46,513 nt of DNA. Origin: a virus. Each line of letters opens with the position of its first letter. Position 1 is the first letter of the stretch. The translations under genes and the position numbers were made by a program. This document shows, in pieces, positions 18,217-43,938 of the stretch. The notes beneath the pieces are model-generated. The model did not search any database, was not told the origin of the DNA, and saw only the letters and a program-made list of their open reading frames with translations. The stretch spans positions 1-46,513 of the IMG/VR virus record IMGVR_UViG_3300030389_003660; one strand, 5' to 3'.

Positions 18217-21200
18217 TTAATCCCAATTTGCACCACCTGCAGAAGTAGAGCTGTCATTTACAGTTATTGTTATAGGACCACCATAGCTGTCGTCGCTGTG
18301 ATCCATTGTAGCTATACCTAAACCTTGAACAGAAAACTCTTTTTCATCTAGGTTGCTTAATGTTGTAGTTTCACCAGTAGGATATGTGAACCATTTACCT
18401 TCTTTGTCTTTAAACTCAAGCTCGCCACATGTTTGTAGATTAGTTTCTAAATTACTTACAAACCACCCGTTAACAGTATCAGGTATATTATAGTATTCTC
18501 TATCACTTACGTTATCTACACTAACAATACCAGTTGTTGCTTCACTACCAGTAGCAGAGTTGTTATTATAAAAAGCAACACCATCAGCAAAAGTCGCTGC
18601 ATCGTCCCAATTAGTTACTCTAGCTTGAGAGCCTTCGTAACTTAAGTATCCAAAACTTTTTACAGATTCTACCGCATCATTAAATAAAACAGTAATATCA
18701 GAATTATACTGAGTACCATAAAAATTATTTCGAGTTTGATTAGTATGATGCTGCCATATATGACCATCAAAGAAAGTATAGTACTGGTTATTCAAACTTA
18801 TACCGTGCTGTAGTCCTTTGACTTGAGCAGGTGACAAATCTTGAGTTACATAAAAAGTTTTAAAACTTAACCACCCTTTTGACTTTTCGCTATACGAAAC
18901 GGTTACTTGCTCTGTAGGTAAATTTTGGCCGTTTCTTGTTTTAGTACTTATAGAAATATTGTACTCGTTTTTTCTTTGATCATAAGTGCCTATAACTTTA
19001 TCTACAGTTTCAGCAAACTTGTCTGCAAAATAATCTTTCATACCTGCGTCAGATATAGGTCTAGCCCCACTGTTATCATTAAGAGCTATTACTTTGCCCC
19101 TCGATACATCAGAAAAATACATTTCAGTAGGAGTAACTACTAGTGATTCTGGATTTTTAGATATACCGTAATCTCCTTGATATGCAACAGCGCTACCAAT
19201 AACTGAGTTACTAGCTACAACTTGAGAATCACCATCCGCGTTAAATAATAAATCTCTATTAGTGTCTGCTCTTAGTATTTTATCTTCACAGAATATAATA
19301 GCCCTAGTATCTCTAGCTTTTAAGGCCTGTATACTACCATGAGTTGGATTTATTTCTTTTGTTATATTTTCACCTGCTATAAATTGATTAGTATCGTTTA
19401 CTCTAGCGTTAGAGTTATACACTCCAGAATATATTAAACCATATTTTCTACGCTCTTCTTTAACTCTAGGACTAGCTAATGTAGAAGAAGCTTTAACGCC
19501 ATTGTCCATTTGAGGAGCGTTAAAATCGTCTCGTATTCTGTCTGACTCTACTCCATTAGCAAAACTCCAACAATTATTCCAGTCTAGCTGTACTGTTTTA
19601 TTAGCTATATTAGTAGTGCTAATAATACCAGACGTAGCGCCAGTATTTACGTTTGGAGCGATGCTAGTAACTATGGAATGACCTGTCACGTTAATAGTGA
19701 CATTTTGAAAACTAACTTCTTGACCAGCGGCTATTATAGAAGCTACTGGTTGACCGGTAATTGCAGGTGTAAAGGTTATTGTGCTATTTTCAAACGACGT
19801 TATAGTATGTGTAGACACAACTGTCTCGAATATGGTTTGACCACCTCCTGTAACACTTTCTTCACCAAAGTCAAATGGTTGTAGCACGTATGACGTAACA
19901 GTAAACGTAGATCCAACAGGTATATACTCTGGTCTAGTTTTTTCATTTAATTTTAAAGGTATTAAACCAGACGCTTGATAATATATATCTAATTCAACAG
20001 CTTCTCTAGGTTCAGTTTCCCATATAGCTGGTGAATCAGAATATGAAGACTCATCCGAAGCAAATGGAGATAAAATTTCTATTACATCGTGACCACTCTT
20101 GTTTGACTGCCCATCGTGTTGTAAAGCTCGTCTAAATTTAGGATTTAACGTACCATCGTCGTTAGCTATAGGTACTAAATCAGGATCTGTGCCGTGTATA
20201 GGATTATAACCACTTTCCGTCTCGTCGCCTCCAATAGGTGGCTCAACTTGTATCGTCCATCTCTGTCTATGATTTATAGCAGCAGCATATTGCCTAGCTG
20301 CTTCATCATGCTTCTCTTCTCCGCCGCTACCACTATCATGGAAAAAGCAAGATAATACATTTTGTATACCCCAAATTCCATTTATTTTTGGACCAGGACC
20401 AAGATTTTGGTTTGCATATCCAACTTCATTGCCTATGTTTTGGAAACCTTCGCCATCGTAATCAAAATCATACACACCGTTTTCATAACCTTTAACAGTA
20501 TATATCTGCGCATCAGGACATCTTTGAAATCTAAACACAGTTCCTGGTGTTACAAGTTCTTTTATAAACGCGTATGCAGCCGCAGACTGCGTATCAATAT
20601 CTGCAAACTCATCTAATTTTCTTTTTAAACCAGTTGTTCCTTCGCTCACTTCCCAAGTATTTCCTGACTGTGTAGGCCAGCTACACCACGATATATCCAT
20701 AAAGCACTTGCCTTGATAACTCCATATACCTCTACTAGGCTGGCCTTCGTATCGGCTCCAATTACCAATTTGATTATTTTGACCATTACCTTGAGGATTT
20801 TCACCTCCACTATCAGCGCTATAAGGAGAAAAATGTGATGTTCCACCAGCACCTAAACTAGGCCACACATTAGCAATATTTGCATGGCTAGCATTAAAAA
20901 ACCCTGCGTCTGTGTCACCGCTAAACCAGTTACCACTAACTATATATCTATAAAAATTTCCTTGAACAGTACCTGCGCTATTAACTGACGAGTACTGGTG
21001 ATGTTGTATAAACCCATCTTCACTAGCAGCACCACCTGCTGTGCCACTACCAGGAGAAAAAGAACCTAAACCATATTGAGAGCCAGCATTTGGTGTAAAA
21101 AAGTTTCCTGGGGCGCCACCATTTTGTCCGCCCCATGAAGCTGCTGTGGCTCCATCTATAAAGAAAGAATTTTTGCTTCGAACATACCACCAAAAGTGCT

Positions 21201-24200
21201 TTGCTGGATTTTGAAAATCTGAACCAGTTTGAGTACTACCAAACCAGTCACGAGATTCACTGCCATTAATTGCTCTTACAGTGTTTGTCGCCATGTTTAT
21301 TCTTACGTTATTTATTTCACCTTCTGTATGATTTTTTAAGAAAGTATATGGCGCACCTGTGTCGTAGCTGTCGGCGTTATATCCCTGCACTGTGCTCCAA
21401 TCGTGTTCTGTAGGGTGATTAGGGCCAGTGCTAAACTTGTTTGCTGCGTAATGCCTGTACCAATGAAATTTATCAACAATAGGATTACCAGTTAGCAAAT
21501 TAGGGTTAACTGTATCAATATGTGTCCAATTAACTCCAAGCCCATCTGTTGGAAGCCAGTTTGAGGGATAACCTCCGTTATGAAACCTAGCATAAGGATA
21601 AATAGCATTATGTGGTATTGTTCCTTGTATACCACCCGGAGTATCTGTACCGTTGTAGGCAGAAGACAAATGTCTTGTTCCAGCGTTAACATAACCGTTA
21701 TTATTAACATAACCTAGAGACCAAGAGTTAAGAACGTAATAATCAAGATCAGATACTTGAGCTACATATTGAGTTAATACGTCGTCTTTAAATATTTTTA
21801 CAAAGAACCTACCGTCAAACTCTGGCGAATTAACTACAGCGTAATTTATAAGCTCTATTTGTAAACCATCTATAGCTGTAGCAAAAGAGTTTTGCGTAGA
21901 AGTAAACGCCATATCTTGGCCAAAAGGTTGCTTAACATTTATCCTATAAAAACCACCTTCACTAGTTAAACCTATATTTGATACTTCGTAGTATGCTGAT
22001 TTTTGACTATTTCCTGCCCAAACTCTAATAAATAATCTCTCGTAATCTCTATCTCGTAAAAAATCTGTACCAAACTCTTCTTCAAAATTTGCTTGAGCAA
22101 TACTTACAGTTCTGTATTCAGGCAATGGAAACCCTTGACCAGCAGATCCAATAGCACCACCTTCATCAGTTACTTTACCTAAACTAATTTTTTGAGTTTT
22201 TATAAAATCAGGAGCATTGCTTTCAATAGCTAATATTCTGTACTTTGCTTTTTCTTCAACAATAGTAGAAGATCCATGAGCTTTTTTAAGTATTAAAAAA
22301 TCTTCTTCTTTCAACTTGTTTCTCTCTGAAGAAGGAAACGAAAGCCAAATATTTCCATCTGATGCATTGTACCATCGATCCATAGAAAGAGTATAATATT
22401 CTACAGATGTTTCTTTTATGTAATAAGAATAATACTCTGCCCATTCAGGTATTGTTGTACCAGTTTGTATTTTAGCTCGTAATTTATTTGAAAATCTAGA
22501 ATATTTTTTATCTAATCTTTTAACAGAAGTTTCACTAGTAAGCACAGGAGTTTCTCTACCAAACCTATCGCTAAACACTACACCAACGTGATAGTCGCGC
22601 ATTGTTTTAACAGATGGTAAAGGATGCGTATTTGAGCCGGCAAGCACTTCATCATGCTTAAAGCTTAATTGTAATTTAGGTGAAGAATCTACATTATAGT
22701 TTTGCAAATAGTTACCATACACAAGTCTATTAGCCGTAATCTCTTGAGCTAATGCTTTACGAGGAACGTTGTCGTAAGGTCGTATAAGTTGATTAGAAGG
22801 AACTACAGCGTGTATCATATCTGTAGTTAAATTAAACTCGCCTCTAGCGTTAGGTTCAATATTAACATCTGGCCACATAGGGTGACCGTCAGATTTGCGT
22901 ATAGTTTTTACTGTATATACCGTAGGATTATTAGTTTCTTTATATAATAAATCTATTTCTACAACATCTTGTGGACATGTAGTTTCTACGTCTTTGTAGT
23001 TTTTAAGCTTTAAACCTCGCAGCTGGTTTCTCATACCAAGGTTATGGCCTTTTTTAGCTTGATAGTCAAATGGACCAGGTAAAAAAGCTACTTGTGAAAA
23101 TGGCGCGAATGGAGAGTACTCTCCGTCTTGATATTTATATCTATATGAAAATCTTGGAAACTTAAAATTAAACAATGTATCTTTATCTTCTAATCTTACT
23201 TTCCAAGGATTTAAATCACTTCCCATGTCACTAGTGACAGATGTTTTTATAGATAAAACTTCTACAGTAAACGGACCTGTAAATATTGCATTTGGATTAT
23301 CGTCGTTTCCTGGACTGTTAACTACTAAAGCTCTTACATCTTGCAGCGCTTCATCATAATTAGAGTTGTAAGCAGAGCTACTTAAAGCGAATAACAACAC
23401 GTCTCCTTCTCTAAAATCTACAGGTTCTTCAAATGTAATAGTAGTTTCTTCACCTATAAGTGTAGGGTTACCATCTTCAGTAAAGTCTCCATCAGAACAG
23501 ATAGCTGTAACTGGATTTTCTATGCCAGTAATAGTATTAACTCTATCTGCAGTAGTTCTATACATATCAAGCAACAACGGGGTTTTAGGCGCTTGGCGTA
23601 TAACTGTAACGTTGCTTAAACCAACAAAGAAAGGTTGAATCCCAGCAGAGTTTAATGCAACTTCAAAATCTTGACCAGTTTCTGTAGAATCTATTACTAA
23701 TCTAGTATGAAAATCAGCGTTTTCTCCTTCAAAAATATCGCTAGTTGGGTTGTTTGATCCTGCACCTTGTAGCACTTCTGTACCACCTGTACCAAACATA
23801 GATCTTCGTATGTTTATTTTTTTTGGCTCGTGAACGTTATCTGTCCAGAATATAAAGTCATCTAATATATTAACTCCAGTGATTATATTGTCTTTATTAA
23901 ACTCAAGAACTTTTTCAGCTGTAAATCTAATATTAGCATCTTCGGCTAAAGTAACTGCGGTGTCTACTGTTATTTGCCACTTAGACTCTCCAACATCATA
24001 CGAAACAGCCGTTACTTTAACTTGAGATTCGTTTGCATTGTATGTTGTGCCAAAAAGCAAATTCATACCTACACGTATACCTGGTATATTAGTAGCGCCA
24101 CTACTATATTCTTCAATAAAGAAGCTAGTAGCGTTATTAACAGCTGCAGCTACAGTTGCGTTAACTCTAAATATATCTACAAAAACGTATTTTATAGTTT

Positions 24201-24573
24201 GAGTTACAGTATCGTATTGTAATATATAATCCTTACCTCTATCTAGCTCTACACCAGTAACAGTATTAAGATCACTATTTACGAAATAATATATTTTATC
24301 TTCATTACTCGCAGCAACTGAACACACACATGTAGCAGAATTTGTTTCGAGCCCGCCTGTTAAGTCATACACACCAGTGACTTGACTTTCAAAGTTAGCC
24401 ATTGTAGTTCTTCTAGTATTGCCTAATGTATTTTGAACAACACCAGAGTTAGACTCTTCAGATGTAGATATTTCTATATTTGTAGCATCTCTATATTCGC
24501 CTTGAGGAACAAGTCTTTCATCAAGATCTTTGTTCATTCTACCGGCAGAGAATACTCTTCTTGATTCAGCCAT
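18217..24573 (-). CDS. Very large tail structural protein (MNKDLDERLVP family)
   Basis: The product is 2118 residues. Its N-terminus has a signature that I recall as common in marine phage tail proteins: AGRMNKDLDERLVPQGEYRD followed by ATNIEIST. Beta-rich sequence follows to about residue 950. Then comes a long insertion of about 400 residues, very rich in Gly, Asn, Trp and His (around 990-1370; for example NGGYPSNWLPTDG). The end is a more regular C-terminal region that includes a KSKGWLSFKTF segment. The conserved N-terminus plus the upstream neighbours (309 and 242 aa) suggest a nozzle or tail-tube protein analogous to T7 gp12, with the insertion as an exposed receptor-interaction part. 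No protease or hydrolase motif was seen. Confidence 0.72.
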   Translation of the reverse strand: MAESRRVFSAGRMNKDLDERLVPQGEYRDATNIEISTSEESNSGVVQNTLGNTRRTTMANFESQVTGVYDLTGGLETNSATCVCSVAASNEDKIYYFVNSDLNTVTGVELDRGKDYILQYDTVTQTIKYVFVDIFRVNATVAAAVNNATSFFIEEYSSGATNIPGIRVGMNLLFGTTYNANESQVKVTAVSYDVGESKWQITVDTAVTLAEDANIRFTAEKVLEFNKDNIITGVNILDDFIFWTDNVHEPKKINIRRSMFGTGGTEVLQGAGSNNPTSDIFEGENADFHTRLVIDSTETGQDFEVALNSAGIQPFFVGLSNVTVIRQAPKTPLLLDMYRTTADRVNTITGIENPVTAICSDGDFTEDGNPTLIGEETTITFEEPVDFREGDVLLFALSSSAYNSNYDEALQDVRALVVNSPGNDDNPNAIFTGPFTVEVLSIKTSVTSDMGSDLNPWKVRLEDKDTLFNFKFPRFSYRYKYQDGEYSPFAPFSQVAFLPGPFDYQAKKGHNLGMRNQLRGLKLKNYKDVETTCPQDVVEIDLLYKETNNPTVYTVKTIRKSDGHPMWPDVNIEPNARGEFNLTTDMIHAVVPSNQLIRPYDNVPRKALAQEITANRLVYGNYLQNYNVDSSPKLQLSFKHDEVLAGSNTHPLPSVKTMRDYHVGVVFSDRFGRETPVLTSETSVKRLDKKYSRFSNKLRAKIQTGTTIPEWAEYYSYYIKETSVEYYTLSMDRWYNASDGNIWLSFPSSERNKLKEEDFLILKKAHGSSTIVEEKAKYRILAIESNAPDFIKTQKISLGKVTDEGGAIGSAGQGFPLPEYRTVSIAQANFEEEFGTDFLRDRDYERLFIRVWAGNSQKSAYYEVSNIGLTSEGGFYRINVKQPFGQDMAFTSTQNSFATAIDGLQIELINYAVVNSPEFDGRFFVKIFKDDVLTQYVAQVSDLDYYVLNSWSLGYVNNNGYVNAGTRHLSSAYNGTDTPGGIQGTIPHNAIYPYARFHNGGYPSNWLPTDGLGVNWTHIDTVNPNLLTGNPIVDKFHWYRHYAANKFSTGPNHPTEHDWSTVQGYNADSYDTGAPYTFLKNHTEGEINNVRINMATNTVRAINGSESRDWFGSTQTGSDFQNPAKHFWWYVRSKNSFFIDGATAASWGGQNGGAPGNFFTPNAGSQYGLGSFSPGSGTAGGAASEDGFIQHHQYSSVNSAGTVQGNFYRYIVSGNWFSGDTDAGFFNASHANIANVWPSLGAGGTSHFSPYSADSGGENPQGNGQNNQIGNWSRYEGQPSRGIWSYQGKCFMDISWCSWPTQSGNTWEVSEGTTGLKRKLDEFADIDTQSAAAYAFIKELVTPGTVFRFQRCPDAQIYTVKGYENGVYDFDYDGEGFQNIGNEVGYANQNLGPGPKINGIWGIQNVLSCFFHDSGSGGEEKHDEAARQYAAAINHRQRWTIQVEPPIGGDETESGYNPIHGTDPDLVPIANDDGTLNPKFRRALQHDGQSNKSGHDVIEILSPFASDESSYSDSPAIWETEPREAVELDIYYQASGLIPLKLNEKTRPEYIPVGSTFTVTSYVLQPFDFGEESVTGGGQTIFETVVSTHTITSFENSTITFTPAITGQPVASIIAAGQEVSFQNVTINVTGHSIVTSIAPNVNTGATSGIISTTNIANKTVQLDWNNCWSFANGVESDRIRDDFNAPQMDNGVKASSTLASPRVKEERRKYGLIYSGVYNSNARVNDTNQFIAGENITKEINPTHGSIQALKARDTRAIIFCEDKILRADTNRDLLFNADGDSQVVASNSVIGSAVAYQGDYGISKNPESLVVTPTEMYFSDVSRGKVIALNDNSGARPISDAGMKDYFADKFAETVDKVIGTYDQRKNEYNISISTKTRNGQNLPTEQVTVSYSEKSKGWLSFKTFYVTQDLSPAQVKGLQHGISLNNQYYTFFDGHIWQHHTNQTRNNFYGTQYNSDITVLFNDAVESVKSFGYLSYEGSQARVTNWDDAATFADGVAFYNNNSATGSEATTGIVSVDNVSDREYYNIPDTVNGWFVSNLETNLQTCGELEFKDKEGKWFTYPTGETTTLSNLDEKEFSVQGLGIATMDHSDDSYGGPITITVNDSSTSAGGANWD

Positions 24574-43033: not shown

Positions 43034-43261
43034 TTATTTCTTAATAAAGTTTCTAGCAGCAGCTAGTGGATTAAGTAATGCACCTGCCACTCCTTTACCT
43101 TGCATCGCTCCGCCTAACTTACCCATTAAACCACCTTTGTCAGCTAGTTTACCACCGACTTTATCAGCTACTACTGCTCCTAAAAATTTTGTTGGAGAAG
43201 AGTCTCCATGCTTTTCTTTATGTATCGATGTTCCGATAACTGTACCTTTTCTACTTTTCAT
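43034..43261 (-). CDS. Small basic Gly-rich protein, 75 aa
   Basis: The product begins MKSRKGTVIGTSIHKEKHGD. It has a central VVADKVGGKLADKGGLMGKL segment with Gly/Lys repeats and a C-terminal AGALLNPLAAARNFIKK helix. Weak hydrophobicity in the second half could allow membrane or capsid-wall contact. The start overlaps the stop of the upstream 128-aa gene (TAATG). The function is unknown; it may be a virion-interior peptide like its neighbours. Confidence 0.55.
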   Translation of the reverse strand: MKSRKGTVIGTSIHKEKHGDSSPTKFLGAVVADKVGGKLADKGGLMGKLGGAMQGKGVAGALLNPLAAARNFIKK

Positions 43262-43647
43262 TATTCGAAGAATATTGCGTGTTCTACAGAGATTTGATCA
43301 TGGCTAGGCGTAATTTTAAAATCAGCATTACCGTTCCAAGGTATTAACGCCACATCACCAGCGTATAATCTACCAAGCTCTTGTGAGGCTATAGCTATTA
43401 CTATATAATGTGCTGCATTTGTCGATGCGTTTCTAATATATACTTTATGAGCTTTATCATCTGTATAACTAGCCGCTAACTGTAAAGTGTATTGATTTGT
43501 ATCACCTACATTTTTAGTTACACCTAAACCAGAAGTCTCTGCTATAGCAGTTGATCCGCCAGCTTGTGTTAAAGTAGCTGTAGCGTCTATAGTAAGGCTA
43601 CTAGATAATAAATCTGACGTTATTACAATTCTCGAAGTTGTTGCCAT
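43261..43647 (-). CDS. First gene of the leftward cluster, beta-rich structural protein
   Basis: The 128-residue product is rich in Thr, Ser and Ala with beta strands: IVITSDLLSSSLTIDATATL, TQAGGSTAIAETSGLGVTKN and TLQLAASYTDDKAHKVYIRN. It ends with a DFKITPSHDQISVEHAIFFE segment. It looks like a short beta-sandwich virion protein (decoration or fibre accessory). It is the promoter-proximal gene of the long leftward cluster, immediately left of the control region, and its own leader is AT-rich (ATAAAGAAAAGAAACA before ATG). Confidence 0.62.
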   Translation of the reverse strand: MATTSRIVITSDLLSSSLTIDATATLTQAGGSTAIAETSGLGVTKNVGDTNQYTLQLAASYTDDKAHKVYIRNASTNAAHYIVIAIASQELGRLYAGDVALIPWNGNADFKITPSHDQISVEHAIFFE

Positions 43648-43788
43648 TGTTTCTTTTCTTTATAATTCTTATAATCACATAGTAAAGTGAAAGTTTACAA
43701 AGTGTGACACATGCCTGCTACTAGGATACTATTAACTACCTATTGTCATACTTTTTTCGGACATTATAAATTTTGGAGTAAAGTGTAG

Positions 43789-43812
43789 CCCCCCACCCCC
43801 GGCCCCTCCCCC
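43789..43812 (-). other. G-quadruplex motif
   Basis: The minus strand reads GGGGG, A, GGGG, CC, GGGGG, T, GGGGGG: four G-runs of at least four with loops of 1, 2 and 1 nt. This is a strict parallel G-quadruplex pattern, standing out in an otherwise AT-rich genome. The plus-strand partner is a matching C-rich i-motif candidate. Its place in the divergent region suggests a role in replication start, packaging or transcriptional control. Folding is predicted from sequence only. Confidence 0.7.
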
Positions 43813-43878
43813 TGCCAGGAAAAGTTGCATATATACAAGGGCCCCACCTGTTTTATTTTCGCAGCTTCAATATTTTTA

Positions 43879-43908
43879 CAAACTAACTACGACTACACTT
43901 CGATAATA
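43879..43908 (+). promoter_or_regulatory. Promoter-like cassette, copy 1
   Basis: CAAACT (43879-43884), AAC, TACGA, eight variable bases, CGATAATA ending at 43908. The spacing from CAAACT to GATAAT is 17 nt, as in sigma-70-like promoters. The next ATG is at 43939, so this copy would give a leader of about 25 nt for the 29-aa micro-ORF. Confidence 0.6.
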
Positions 43909-43938
43909 TATATATAACAAAACAAAAACTATTTTACA

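Follow-up and report, generated by a model that had tools for sequence, protein, structure and literature searches.

The late promoters of phage T4 are many and are of the TATAAATA type. Among viral promoters containing G-quadruplex (G4) motifs, the G4s in the immediate-early promoters of alphaherpesviruses are fully conserved among three viruses and have been shown to fold and to act (PMC6651000). In phages of Bacteroidetes few G-quadruplex motifs occur (PMC8036883), and our literature search on G4 together with phage genome and late promoter found no paper. Here we consider a G4 tract in a virus record of 46,513 bases (hereafter the window, meaning the whole stretch of DNA analysed), which comparison with related phages shows to be a genuine, recurrently conserved feature, placed in a probable late promoter.

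The phage and its divergent control region

In the window a leftward cluster carries genes for terminase, portal and GroEL. By terminase and portal, its isolate relatives are Elemovirus, the Cellulophaga and Tenacibaculum phages and MW202828, from which we infer a flavobacterial host. The clade itself consists of uncultured podovirus-like phages, kin to phages of Flavobacteriia. At the DNA level the window showed no similarity to isolate phages, and a search of Rfam gave no match. A weak match to the C-terminal domain of the crassvirus muzzle protein was seen in a protein of 2118 residues encoded at 18217-24573 on the minus strand.

The features of the region in which the leftward late and the rightward early genes diverge are as follows.

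43261..43647, minus strand: first gene of the leftward late cluster, 128 aa, of no family
43670..43684, minus strand: second conserved block, TACTATGTGATTATA, directly upstream of the first late gene
43705..43748, minus strand: operator-like inverted repeat TGACA..(34 nt)..TGTCA, downstream of the core
43764..43792, minus strand: promoter-like core GGGGSWRCRC-N5-YYCWAWATTTRYAA, once per record, including the last four Gs of the tract
43789..43812, minus strand: G-quadruplex tract G5AG4CCG5TG6, filler of the 35-nt spacer, with its Gs on the non-template strand for leftward transcription
43813..43823, minus strand: 5' part of the 35-nt spacer (TTTTCCTGGCA); its T-run lies 35 nt ahead of the core and serves as the fixed reference point
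43820..43850, minus strand: upstream block A (GGTGGGGCCC...AACTTTT), a conserved G-rich patch and T-run; putative upstream-factor site
43874..43922, plus strand: first copy of the repeated early motif ACAAACTAAATACGA-N7/8-GATAATA, directed away from the tract; candidate early promoter

The early motif recurs, as ACAAACTAAATACGA-N7/8-GATAATAATAATATG, at 43874, 44031, 44206, 44800 and 45521 on the plus strand and is confined to the early region, where the motif often ends at the start codon of small genes. It is a candidate for an early promoter of unfamiliar type.

The G-rich tract

On the plus strand positions 43789-43812 read CCCCCC A CCCCC GG CCCC T CCCCC, such that the minus strand, GGGGGAGGGGCCGGGGGTGGGGGG, presents G-runs of 5, 4, 5 and 6 separated by loops of 1, 2 and 1 nt. 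The canonical definition of a G4 (four runs of at least three Gs, with loops of 1-7 nt) is thereby satisfied, and the reading of the earlier note, a strict motif with four runs of four to six Gs and loops of 1, 2 and 1, is borne out. For the leftward late genes, the strand carrying the Gs is the sense strand. The predicted folding energy is -47 kcal/mol with G4 terms and -14 kcal/mol without them, values that rely on RNA parameters and serve as a forecast only.

The earlier note had noticed no second tract of this kind, and a scan confirms that the 46.5-kb window, with a GC content of 37%, contains a single motif with G-runs of at least three and loops of 1-7 nt, namely this tract. In 200 dinucleotide shuffles of the window the mean number of canonical motifs was 0.015 and the maximum 1, and motifs with runs of four were entirely absent. 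The same shuffles yielded 8.2 runs of five or more Gs or Cs against three observed, and all three sit in the tract, so that the rest of the window is devoid of such runs. Allowing up to three mismatches, the exact tract string occurs once in the window with none expected, and a search for the exact tract in viral contigs gave no match.

An assembly artefact, which had been envisaged as a way in which the tract might prove meaningless, is excluded, because many independent contigs of the same clade, derived from many other metagenomes, carry different G4 tracts at the homologous place and on the same strand. A separate case is one contig (L064:1-31), whose first 31 bases are all G, roughly where the tract would lie; this is probably an artefact of sequencing.

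A promoter-like element with a spacer of constant length

A scan for the core among relatives recovered at least 120 stretches. The element, as compared over 119 distinct loci among the matches listed, consists of block A (in relatives a G-rich patch, an A-rich stretch and a T-run), a spacer of 35-36 nt and the core, usually followed by an inverted repeat. It lies at the divergence of late and early genes, one per record, about 120 nt ahead of the first late gene; the median distance from the core to the first late reading frame is 123 nt (109 loci). In all 80 of the 80 records tested the core was found exactly once, and the reversed control gave none. Within the window the core scores 38.9 and the next best place 12.4. 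The placement of the tract in a divergent control region between gene clusters, and its proposed link to the late promoter, are both supported in that this conserved promoter-like core adjoins it.

The core is not a clean match to TATAAT or to the Bacteroidetes consensus (TTG / TAnnTTTG); a strict Bacteroidetes housekeeping promoter (TTG at -33, TAnnTTTG at -7) has no match in the region, apart from a partial -7-like box. Every locus has A-rich patches ahead of the G patch of block A, spaced about 10-13 nt apart, which may be intrinsically curved DNA.

The spacer is constant in length and variable in content. Counted from the T-run's first T, the core is 35-36 nt away in nearly all loci, the mean being 35.6, 35.5, 35.3 and 35.4 nt for G4, two-tier, hairpin and other fillers, respectively (sd 0.5-0.7). 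When the regions are placed side by side, constant flanks enclose a variable tract, and in close relatives the same spacer length is occupied by a hairpin. Seven more distant genomes, reached via a sigma operon and devoid of the strict core, keep the layout with 35-37 nt, and a canonical G4 was found in none of their spacers. In MW202828 block A is apparently kept, with about 35 nt, counted by eye, to a GGGGGG and a hairpin as filler. Slippage as a source of the G-runs is unlikely, since the spacer length does not vary. As read from these comparisons, a spacer of fixed length with a freely evolving filler is the most useful result of the analysis.

Quadruplex-forming capacity among relatives

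Among 80 contigs reached through GroEL, about one third have, on the sense strand, a G4 motif roughly 0.8-3.2 kb ahead of GroEL, with sequences that are all different; GroEL-anchored loci without the G-run beside the core also exist (L078, L080). Among the matches listed, 41 of 110 spacers contain a canonical G4, rising to 48 with loops of up to 12 nt and to 82 when two-tier motifs are counted, fractions that are indicative only, because the search pattern demanded a G-run beside the core for most cores and so biased the sample. No canonical G4 was found on the opposite strand of the 110 spacers, nor downstream of the core. Shuffling each spacer separately with its last five bases kept gave an expectation of 18.5 +/- 3.1 canonical G4s, with a maximum of 31 in 2000 shuffles, against the 41 observed, the loci in these counts not being independent of one another.

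On the GroEL tree (98 rows) the G4 state requires at least 25 changes, at least 14 of them forced by well supported branches, a count which recombination between phages could inflate. The clade of the window comprises nine rows in that tree, five with G4 and four with hairpin spacers. The expectation that the tract be conserved in related phages is therefore upheld in one respect, many relatives having a G4 in the same slot and on the same strand, and fails in another, since others have a hairpin or a non-G4 filler. By this comparison the G4 is recurrent in a fixed slot yet dispensable: being absent from close relatives, it cannot be essential.

A putative late control circuit

Shortly after the core most loci have the inverted repeat TGACA..TGTCA, and in relatives the same repeat is found upstream of an early operon (64 of 79 loci), which encodes a helix-turn-helix (HTH) protein of 207 residues and a sigma-70 family factor, the latter present in 78 loci. 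The family assignment is supported by Pfam, PHROGs, PDB and NCBIfam profiles. The window itself ends before the sigma gene, which is known from relatives, occurring in 18 of 20 large records of the clade versus none of six related isolate genomes; a search of isolate phages found neither the HTH protein nor the sigma factor. The model of the HTH protein is confident (pLDDT 86) and has no significant match in the PDB. Operons of this kind with the repeat upstream (L142:7889-9302 and L265-L344) were seen in uncultured phages only, and distant relatives (L370-L380) have, around the divergent region, at least two TGACA..TGTCA copies separated by about 170-760 nt.

Strict co-occurrence of sigma and core was rejected as proof of their relation, 26 of 34 more distant sigma-bearing records being without the strict core, although the seven inspected keep the layout. 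An RNA hairpin formed by the repeat in the leader was likewise discarded: positions 10-11 are paired in only 57-65% of late leaders, and because paired positions mismatch too often, a protein-binding palindrome is the more likely interpretation.

Taken together, these observations make it fairly probable that the element is a single, leftward late promoter, in which the G4 tract would be the filler of the fixed-length spacer, a modulator and non-essential. The core would be read by RNA polymerase, probably with the phage sigma factor known from the early cluster of relatives, an assignment suggested by its position and the shared inverted repeat. A factor bound at block A could touch the polymerase across the spacer, and the HTH protein may bind the repeat in both settings, ahead of its own operon and at the late promoter. 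The Gs would lie on the non-template strand, next to the core and reaching into its upstream part, and could fold into a G4 under negative supercoiling or when the promoter opens. Such a structure would mask the core's GGGG and disturb the spacing, and would thus most likely damp or time late transcription. Since in other relatives different DNA takes up the same length, the tract probably tunes the late switch rather than being the switch itself.

Alternative interpretations

The same late promoter could function without any G4 forming in the cell, a protein reading the duplex or stiff G-rich DNA suiting the spacer, with quadruplex capacity as a by-product; we consider this possible, if distinctly less probable than a modulating tract. 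A G-rich duplex serving stiffness or protein binding would produce the same pattern, the spacer stays at 35-36 nt under any filler, several peaks of G density occur along it, and block A has a G patch of its own. Against this, the Gs are clustered into four or more runs far above composition (41 versus 18.5), and the bases between the runs lack the conservation expected of a protein site.

The stronger version of the modulating tract is that the G4 folds on the non-template strand in infected cells as negative supercoiling builds up, reversibly masking the GGGG, the presumed sigma contact, and breaking the 35-bp phasing between polymerase and upstream factor, and so acts as a timer of the late region. 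We regard this specific proposal as unlikely; if true, a late-region timer would have been reinvented repeatedly in the same slot across a phage family.

Less probable still is a replication origin, in which a leftward G-rich RNA would form a persistent RNA-DNA hybrid and prime synthesis in the manner of mitochondrial CSB II. The single occurrence of the element in each record, where the gene clusters diverge, the AT-rich core with A-rich patches upstream, the sense orientation of the G-rich strand and a minimum of cumulative GC skew in the 44-45 kb bin are all compatible with an origin, but the skew also tracks gene orientation, the element is kept in relatives without any G-run, and the necessary leftward promoter upstream of block A was not recognised there, the conserved early motif at that place pointing right. 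For replication initiation, one of the roles suggested previously, nothing specific speaks in favour.

A packaging start or genome end (pac, cos or terminal repeat) at the tract is very improbable: contig ends do gather at the tract and to its right, and one contig of 67.5 kb opens directly at it, but same-species contigs cross it (L084 vs L089, L240 vs L159, L212 vs L166), the ends within it spread over 0-22 nt, the pattern that failed sequencing would give, with no reproducible single-base end, and other record ends lie about 10-12 kb away, so that a fixed packaging start, also suggested in the earlier note, is rejected.

The pile-up itself is substantial, with 8 of 80 contigs ending in the 25 nt that precede the core (P about 1e-5 versus neighbouring bins). 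Because same-species contigs cross the tract and the ends scatter, it most likely reflects failed sequencing or assembly and hints at a difficult structure; the tract would thus explain why assemblies of these phages break at this place. Ends also gather, less tightly, 200-800 nt to the right, perhaps because the early DNA there is variable and rich in repeats. Another cluster lies 10-12 kb to the right of the core (G001, G002, G016, G041, G078, G024, G095); in G001 it falls near the exonuclease and primase genes, and the two ends of that record share an overlap of about 436 nt with an identity of only 91%.

Comparison with known systems

The clade constitutes a natural experiment, in which one promoter with one spacer length is combined with G4, hairpin or plain DNA, switched many times, so that the effect of a promoter G4 beyond length and composition becomes open to direct test. 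For phages of which no cultured member was found, it further provides a late control circuit (a sigma factor, an HTH protein and a shared inverted repeat, with binding as a proposed step).

As in the alphaherpesvirus promoters (PMC6651000), the motifs lie in a viral promoter, here a putative one, and recur in related viruses; unlike those G4s, the motif described here is gained and lost in a slot of fixed length and is known from sequence alone. The combination of an AT-rich box with a G4 motif nearby resembles the bacterial promoters of G4PromFinder (PMC5801747), which however come from GC-rich genomes, whereas here the GC content is low and the motif a single one. With mitochondrial CSB II (PMC4357710) the tract shares a sense-oriented G-rich strand near a divergent control region, but CSB II is transcribed from an upstream promoter, and none was recognised here. 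Similarly, the pilE G4 of Neisseria gonorrhoeae (PMC4412290) lies upstream of a gene and near a promoter, but initiates recombination with silent gene copies, of which none was noticed in the present case.

A phage-encoded sigma factor probably directs the late genes, as gp55 does at the T4 late promoters (PMC2988020). A T4-type box at many late genes was not seen; the core occurs once per record and has a different sequence. Unlike T4, these phages would rely on one promoter with a long bipartite upstream part.
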